DNA of 38,481 nt from contig JAJXWN010000005.1 of the NCBI GenBank assembly GCA_021781595.1, positions 1 through 38,481 on the forward strand, given 5' to 3'. Below, piece by piece: positions 23,579-25,000 of this stretch. The notes under the pieces are model-generated. The model was not told the DNA's origin, ran no database searches, and was given only the letters and a program-made list of their open reading frames with translations. Origin of the DNA: a bacterium. Lineage in GTDB: Bacteria > Vulcanimicrobiota > Vulcanimicrobiia > Vulcanimicrobiales > Vulcanimicrobiaceae. The position numbers and the translations under genes were made by a program. Positions within the stretch are counted from its first letter, which is position 1. Each line of letters opens with the position of its first letter.

Positions 23579-25000
23579 ATGGCTAAGACTCGGGCGGTGG
23601 CCAAGGCTCGCTCCGTTTTCTTCTGCTCGGCATGCGGCTTCGAATCGCCGCGCTGGCTCGGGCGCTGCCCCCAGTGCGACGCGTGGAACTCGTTCGACCA
23701 AACGCCCATGCGCGTTGCTTCCGGGCGTCCTTCGAGTACGGCGGCAGCGCTTGGGAGCGCCGCCGAACCGGTGCGCCTGCGCGATATCGACGGCTCGCGC
23801 GTAACGCGCGAGCGCACCGGAATGACGGAGTTCGACGCGCTCCTCGGCGGCGGCATCGTTCCGGGGAGCCTGATCCTCATCGGCGGCCCGCCGGGCGCCG
23901 GCAAATCGACGCTCGTGCTGCAGATGGCGGCCCGCCTCTGCGGCCGAGGCGCCGGCGTCGTATACGTCTGCGGCGAAGAGTCGGCCGCGCAACTCAAGAT
24001 GCGTGCCTCGCGCCTCTCCCTGCGAGAATCCTTCGACGAGCTCAGGATGACAGGGGCCCTTGGAGCAGATCCAGCCCTTCGACAAGCTCCGGATGACGAC
24101 GGGTTTGGGGACGTCTTGGTCTTTGCCGAGACGAATCTACGCGCGGTGCTCGAGCGGCTCGAGCGACTGGCGCCGAGGGCTTTGATCGTCGACTCGATCC
24201 AGACGGTCTGGCTGCCGGAGGCCGAGGCCTATGCAGGCAGCGTCACGCAGATTCGCGACTGCACCCAAGCGCTCGTGGAGTATTCGAAGCGCACGGGCTG
24301 CGCCACGTTCGTCATCGGCCACATAACGAAGGACGGTACGATCGCCGGCCCCCGGCTCCTGGAGCATCTCGTCGATACCGTGCTGTACTTCGAAGGCGAG
24401 AACACTTCAGACTACCGCATTCTGCGGGCGTATAAGAACCGCTTCGGAAGCATCGACGAGATCTGCGTCTTCAGCATGCACGGCGACGGCCTGCACGAGA
24501 TCGCAAATCCATCGGAGCTCTTCCTCTCCGGACGCGCGGCGCGTTCCAGCGGCTCTTGCGTCGTCGCCAGCATAGTGGGTTCGCGACCGTTGCTCGTCGA
24601 GGTGCAAGCCCTGGTCGGCGAGACCGGCTACGGCTCACCTCGGCGGCTGGCGAACAACCTCGACCAAGGCCGCCTCGCGATGATCCTCGCCGTGCTGGAA
24701 CGCCGCGCCGGGATGCAGCTCGGAACGCACGACGTCTACGTGTCGGTTGCCGGAGGGTTGCGCGTGAACGAGCCCGCGGCCGATCTCGGGATCGCGCTTG
24801 CGATCGCGTCGTCTTTCCGCAACCGGGCCATGCCTGTCGATGCCGCTGCATTCGGAGAGGTCGGGCTCTCGGGCGAGATCCGAGCGGTCGGCGCAAGTTC
24901 GCGCCGCTCCGCCGAAGCGCGCAAGCTCGGCTACGGAACGATCTATTCGCCGGAGAACTGCACCGAGATCGCTACGGCGGTCGAGCTGGCGCTCGGATGA
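23579..25000 (+). CDS. radA: DNA repair protein RadA (with in-frame insertion)
   Basis: CSACGFESPRWLGRCPQC zinc motif, GGPPGAGKSTL Walker A, KNRFGS motif, Lon-protease-like C-terminus (VNEPAADLGIALAIASSFR...FGEVGLSGEIRAV). Confidence 0.95.
   Translation: MAKTRAVAKARSVFFCSACGFESPRWLGRCPQCDAWNSFDQTPMRVASGRPSSTAAALGSAAEPVRLRDIDGSRVTRERTGMTEFDALLGGGIVPGSLILIGGPPGAGKSTLVLQMAARLCGRGAGVVYVCGEESAAQLKMRASRLSLRESFDELRMTGALGADPALRQAPDDDGFGDVLVFAETNLRAVLERLERLAPRALIVDSIQTVWLPEAEAYAGSVTQIRDCTQALVEYSKRTGCATFVIGHITKDGTIAGPRLLEHLVDTVLYFEGENTSDYRILRAYKNRFGSIDEICVFSMHGDGLHEIANPSELFLSGRAARSSGSCVVASIVGSRPLLVEVQALVGETGYGSPRRLANNLDQGRLAMILAVLERRAGMQLGTHDVYVSVAGGLRVNEPAADLGIALAIASSFRNRAMPVDAAAFGEVGLSGEIRAVGASSRRSAEARKLGYGTIYSPENCTEIATAVELALG
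24030..24051 (+). repeat. 22-bp repeat copy 1 inside radA
   Basis: ccttcgacgagctcaggatgac. Confidence 0.75.
24076..24097 (+). repeat. 22-bp repeat copy 2 inside radA
   Basis: ccttcgacaagctccggatgac; 20/22 identical to copy 1, direct orientation, starts 46 bp apart. Confidence 0.75.

Follow-up and report, generated by a model that had tools for sequence, protein, structure and literature searches.

Why does the RadA protein of a Vulcanimicrobiota genome contain about 27 residues that its family relatives lack, and where did the DNA encoding them come from? Our analysis indicates that a short dispersed REP-like element very probably entered radA, was tolerated in frame within a loop, and is present there in two direct copies in the source genome. 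The gene, radA (sms), lies at positions 23579 to 25000 on the forward strand of the window, by which we mean the whole stretch of 38,481 nucleotides that was analysed. It encodes a 473-residue DNA repair protein, as judged from the match of the open reading frame to TIGR00416 (E = 2.9e-158) and from the RadA structures 5lkm and 8rxc in the PDB, the former of which can be aligned on either side of residues 148-177 while skipping them. These are roughly the residues encoded by the extra segment, 24020 to 24109 on the forward strand, and they fall between RLSL and DVLVFAET, where an alignment of relatives from outside the genus has a short loop, mostly of 4 residues. The named relatives are metagenome-assembled genomes of Candidatus Eremiobacterota (NCBI phylum Vulcanimicrobiota). 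The figure of about 26 additional in-frame residues, given in a preliminary description of this DNA, thus becomes about 27 when counted against relatives with the 4-residue loop, and the insertion, far from recurring in all orthologues, is missing outside the genus.

The preliminary description had raised the question of whether the insert sits in a loop, and an AlphaFold2 model of RadA, built on 28 sequences, places it in one. The mean pLDDT is 80.9 and the protein is predicted to be well folded except for residues 149-173, which score below 50 and lie between a helix (136-145) and a strand (179-182). The model supports a flexible, disordered loop on an intact fold.

What is the inserted DNA? 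It holds two cores, TTCGACGAGCTCAGGATGA at 24032-24050 and TTCGACAAGCTCCGGATGA at 24078-24096, in direct orientation and 46 bp apart, just as the preliminary description had them. Copy 1 as a whole (ATCCTTCGACGAGCTCAGGATGACA, 24028 to 24052, forward strand) ends in TGTC on its antisense strand and is translated as SFDELRMT, while copy 2 (the GCCCTTCGACAAGCTCCGGATGACG region, 24074 to 24097, forward strand) has an antisense CGTC tag and is translated as ALRQAPDD, so that two frames of the repeat are in use in radA. The antisense reading of copy 1 is CHPELVEGF, a peptide which the preliminary description had associated with a dispersed repeat, and the repeat is indeed dispersed: in the source genome (G000; 2.26 Mb, 91% complete) 26 sites match at no more than 2 mismatches and none matches the reversed pattern, and the window alone has 3 matches at no more than 3 mismatches against 0.16 expected. 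The forward consensus is about GTCCTTCGACAAGCTCAGGATGACA, and an extended alignment of the genomic copies gives a conserved core of ~24-25 bp, consisting of GTCC or ATCC, TTCGACARGCTCAGGATGA and CA, between unrelated flanks. A chance resemblance is refuted by the copy number of 26 and the empty control. Ordinary variation of the RadA loop that merely looks like a repeat could draw on the fact that loop lengths do vary elsewhere without clear repeats, by about +7 residues in one genome (G008) and about +17 in another (L124), but it does not account for the presence of two almost exact copies of a repeat found 26 times in the genome, nor for the independent dispersed repeat in a second lineage described below, and we give practically no credence to either version of this explanation.

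Among the assemblies compared, which are metagenome-assembled, the two congeners of the source genome carry 29 (G001) and 36 (G002) copies, and two other genomes carry 30 (G004) and 89 (G010, a single contig, 99% complete); many other family members from sister genera among the genomes counted have none. The 30-base consensus matches plasmids of Sinorhizobium, Sphingobium, Novosphingobium, Methylobacterium, Nitratireductor and others, the best outside match being to Rhizobium at 24/24 bases, and therefore repeats of this type are not confined to Vulcanimicrobiota. Exact TCCTTCGACARGCTCAGGATGACA matches also occur in eleven IMG/VR contigs (L149-L159), which are putatively viral DNA. A text search of open papers for the repeat or its peptide returned nothing relevant.

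The preliminary description had called the repeat palindromic, and this holds for the element consensus, which forms a weak stem-loop, but not for the insert as a whole, which has no palindrome because its two copies are direct. Two consensus forms fold better than shuffled sequences (z = -3.2 and -2.1), with a predicted stem of 5-7 bp around an 11-nt loop. Across 103 copies from three genomes the outer stem shows compensatory change, the pair at -2/14 being C-G in 83 and G-C in 13 (paired in 99/103 against 76 expected), and an inner G-C pair is kept in 100/103, so that a longer, mismatched stem is possible. The first stem pair is A-T in 20/103 and G-T in 73/103; the second is T-A in 31, C-G in 36 and C-A in 24. 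In contrast, the whole radA insert has a fold z of +1.5, folding revealed no strong hairpin formed by both radA copies, and neither copy individually folds better than shuffles. Nor did the insert match any known Rfam element or structured RNA, a tRNA being the sole such match in the window. The antisense end of the consensus is TGTC in G000 and G002 and CGTC in G010; the consensus contains no GTAG tag and no conserved CCA-like unpaired tail after the stem.

How might the loop have come to hold two copies? In both congeners RadA has 460 residues and carries GEDPALRQARGGDGFG, which is one degenerate copy, and the degenerate form of copy 2, TTCGACAAGCTCGGGG, is common to both. The source-genome gene is 39 bp longer, and these 39 bp (24020 to 24058, forward strand, with CCCT microhomology at the ends) contain copy 1 and occur in neither congener. 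With one degenerate copy in each congener and just these 39 bp peculiar to the source genome, stepwise growth of the insert is probable. G001 is more like G002 (97.0%) than either is like the source genome (95.4-95.8%), and because of this a gain in the source genome and a loss in the congeners' ancestor are equally parsimonious. Copy 1 may therefore not be a fresh insertion: 39 bp could have been lost in that ancestor through the CCCT microhomology, or copy 2 could have been duplicated locally and then diverged. Either course is compatible with the entry of a REP-like element into radA. To its left, copy 1 has a flank similar to that of the single-copy form (as good a similarity arose in 28 of 5000 shuffles), which together with the CCCT repeats at both ends leaves room for local duplication or deletion, and at other loci the element often grows in tandem. 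However, copy 1 is closer than copy 2 to the genome consensus, flanking ATCC and CAGGGG included, and the divergence between the two copies exceeds the third-position divergence between congeners (8-10%), which argues against a recent duplication. We thus consider a non-fresh origin of copy 1 a serious possibility, somewhat short of an even bet. Comparison of filled and empty sites yielded no clean empty site with a target duplication; target-site duplications are not recoverable because the flanks also slip.

Several observations on the surroundings of the repeat at other loci may be recorded here. Copies at L016, L024, L019 and L025, and at their orthologues, have seeded local tandem growth in 21-bp CCCTTCGACAAGCTCAGGATG units and in GGGATGAC units; this growth differs between congeners, and slippage therefore seems to drive the evolution of these sites. 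Next to several copies (L005, L011; L169 and L179 in G002) there is a longer dispersed repeat, about GCACGAGCGGCTGTGACCGACGAGCGAAGCCAGGATGGCGGAGCGACGAACGGCGCTCG, and at some orthologous intergenic sites a palindrome-like dispersed repeat of roughly 100 bp, containing CCGAATACATCGTTGCTCATCAGTCACGAAGCTACGGCTTCGCTCCTTCTTCGCGCC, stands in place of the short one (L185, L092 and L094 in G002). The gap between rpsL and rpsG holds a copy in all three congeners, immediately after what is apparently the stop codon of rpsL (L010 on contig C132 of the source genome, L078 and L075); in G002 part of this copy is duplicated in tandem.

RadA is one of several hosts. Codon scores, taken together with reading frames and family models, put the repeat in frame inside MutS (..FVKRTG-VLRQAQDD..), IleRS (..FAPD-CRPELLEG..) and MetX (..VRL-CHPEPVEG..), and in dapB and argG it lies at the C-terminal end; a further copy in G002 lies inside a thymidine-phosphorylase-like frame (DeoA, assigned from sequence by eye). 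The repeat is translated in both sense and antisense frames. The ileS gene (L022; orthologues L104 and L111) has two adjacent repeat-derived in-frame segments, one common to the three congeners (of GTCATGCTGAGC type, in opposite orientation) and one of 39 bp found in the source genome only. Another copy overlaps the 5' end of recG (L017 on contig C220 of the source genome; orthologues L083 and L107), where ATGTCGAAGGAT is read as MSKD; the ATGTCGAAGGAT of the element apparently supplies the ATG start codon in 2/3 congeners, and G002 has ACG there.

If these inserts are translated, selection for frame should be visible in how their lengths change. Between congeners the differences at radA, mutS, ileS and deoA are 39, 39, 42, 30, 39, 57, 18 and 18 bp. 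Non-zero changes are divisible by three in 8/8 coding cases against 6/26 non-coding ones (Fisher p = 0.0002), or, counted by site, in 4/4 against 2/15 (p = 0.004), the counts being small, read by hand off alignments, and taken from congeners that are not independent. Length changes in multiples of three point to translated, frame-selected inserts.

Moreover, the same RadA loop was entered twice. The RadA of L123 (Bin.005_Pasture) has RILEVSSFDNPSTPALRASAQGDKLFV at the position of the source insert, and its radA DNA carries TCCTTCGACAACCCTTCGACTCCGGCGCTTCGCGCCTCCGCTCAGGGTGACA as part of a 41-bp element whose outer arms, CCTTCGAC and GCTCAGGGTGACA, are as in the source repeat, with an enlarged middle. 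Its own genome holds 7 matches to this element, counting the one in radA, against none for the control. When the loop is left out, the RadA tree places L123 beside the short-loop L121 with support of 100/99, and 0% of bootstrap trees have a single origin of the loop insertion; given these well-supported branches there are at least two origins. As judged by tree and repeat together, a separate Vulcanimicrobiota (Eremiobacterota) lineage independently acquired a dispersed repeat of its own at this loop. The long loop of L124 was considered as a third REP insertion and set aside, as this is not clear from its DNA.

We picture the events as follows. A REP-like element would have entered the radA reading frame in the ancestor of the genus, at the loop between the helix after GEESAAQ and the next strand, and this loop came to hold two direct copies in the source genome. 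The DNA may have been gained by transposition or by repair-associated copying, followed by local duplication and slippage. The inserted residues, as a disordered surface loop, would leave the ATPase and hexamer functions intact, so that frame-preserving insertions could persist by neutrality while others were purged. What the comparisons establish, at the level of sequence, is a dispersed element, short orthologues, a retained frame and a similar, independent event in another lineage.

Could the insert instead have been retained for what it does? On this account the repeat peptide modifies the activity of RadA (and MutS), for example by tuning the rate of mutation or recombination. The hosts in the genus do include radA, mutS and the start of recG, the radA insertion occurred twice independently, and many repair genes with REPs are reported by Di Nocera, De Gregorio and Rocco (2013, PMC3733652), who speculate that REPs in repair genes tune mutation or recombination rate. 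However, the repeat is also hosted by ileS, metX and deoA, and by dapB and argG at their C-termini; the sequence of the insert is poorly kept (different frames are used, and copy 2 differs at ~5 positions in 45 bp between the source genome and G002), the insert is predicted to be disordered, and no enrichment could be demonstrated from so small a set of host genes. We regard such an adaptation as unlikely. Also speculative, and quite improbable in our estimation, is the broader idea that REP-like elements of Vulcanimicrobiota prefer recombination and repair genes (radA twice, mutS, the recG start) and that the loops so gained change repair or the rate of mutation; if true, such a preference would offer a testable case of REP-driven modulation of genome stability.

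Neutral insertion of a REP-like element raises the question of what mobilises it. The element itself has no transposase, and neither of the two families tested, Y1 and IS110, consistently accompanies it. Mobilisation by a Y1 (IS200/IS605-like) transposase, as for RAYT-type REPs, is suggested by the small dispersed stem-loops and their inverted dimers, but Y1_Tnp has no match in the source genome, G004 (30 copies) or G010 (89 copies), is found among repeat-rich genomes in G002 only, and occurs in sister-family genomes with almost no repeat; moreover, the repeat lacks the GTAG tag. We reject this mechanism as highly improbable, given the absence of Y1_Tnp from most repeat-rich genomes. IS110 transposase is present in G010 and absent in G000, G002 and G004, and was rejected as a mobiliser for want of consistent co-occurrence with copy number, although G010 has both. 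For CGTC-type REPs, too, we know of no mobilising enzyme.

More generally, we have here a repeated insertion at one protein loop and, in three close genomes, coding-site inserts whose lengths change only by multiples of three. The inserts serve as a natural map that shows which loops of conserved enzymes are permissive, and they point to specific loci at which a gain or loss of REPs may be caught by comparing close relatives.

How does this element compare with known systems? Like Rickettsia palindromic elements, it lies in frame in unrelated conserved reading frames (radA, mutS, ileS and metX in the source genome), and its GAGC..GAAG motifs are ones we take to resemble theirs. It is presumably much shorter than elements of the RPE-1 type, at about 8 residues per copy, and comes from a different phylum. 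With the GTAG-tagged REPs mobilised by RAYTs it shares short dispersed stem-loops and inverted pairs; unlike them, it lacks the GTAG tag, and most of the genomes that carry it are without a Y1 transposase. The reading of the preliminary description, a tolerated in-frame insertion like those in Rickettsia, remains the best one, with the refinement that by its described features the element resembles the CGTC-tagged REPs more than the long RPE-1.

As characterised by Di Nocera et al. (PMC3733652), CGTC-tagged REPs, which include RPE-4 and RPE-6 of Rickettsia conorii and dRS3 of Neisseria, have no dedicated transposase. They are defined by an unpaired terminal CGTC (or TGTC/CCTC), a stem of 8-9 bp with complementary AT at its first two positions, a loop of 4-5 nt and a CCA-like unpaired tail; inverted dimers predominate, and in-frame insertions of 20-30 residues, often of two copies, occur in repair genes and tRNA synthetases (PMC3733652). 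Set against that description, the present repeat is likewise a short stem-loop with an unpaired CGTC/TGTC end, has no associated transposase of the two families examined, forms pairs in G010 that are mostly inverted (16 opposite-orientation against 2 direct pairs within 100 bp), and makes in-frame insertions, including in repair genes, with two-copy inserts of 20-30 residues. It differs in its paired stem of 5-7 bp and loop of 11 nt, in a first stem pair that is often G-T rather than A-T, in having no CCA tail, and in the direct neighbouring copies and slippage arrays common in the source genus, where opposite-orientation pairs are few. Because of its stem length, loop length and tail we do not claim formal membership of that class. 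In-frame REP insertion, repair genes included, is already a known kind of event. CGTC-type intragenic insertions have so far come mainly from Proteobacteria, and the present case extends them to a distant phylum and to RadA as the host protein. Thus the mechanism is an ordinary one in a new place, with an unusually clear comparative record.
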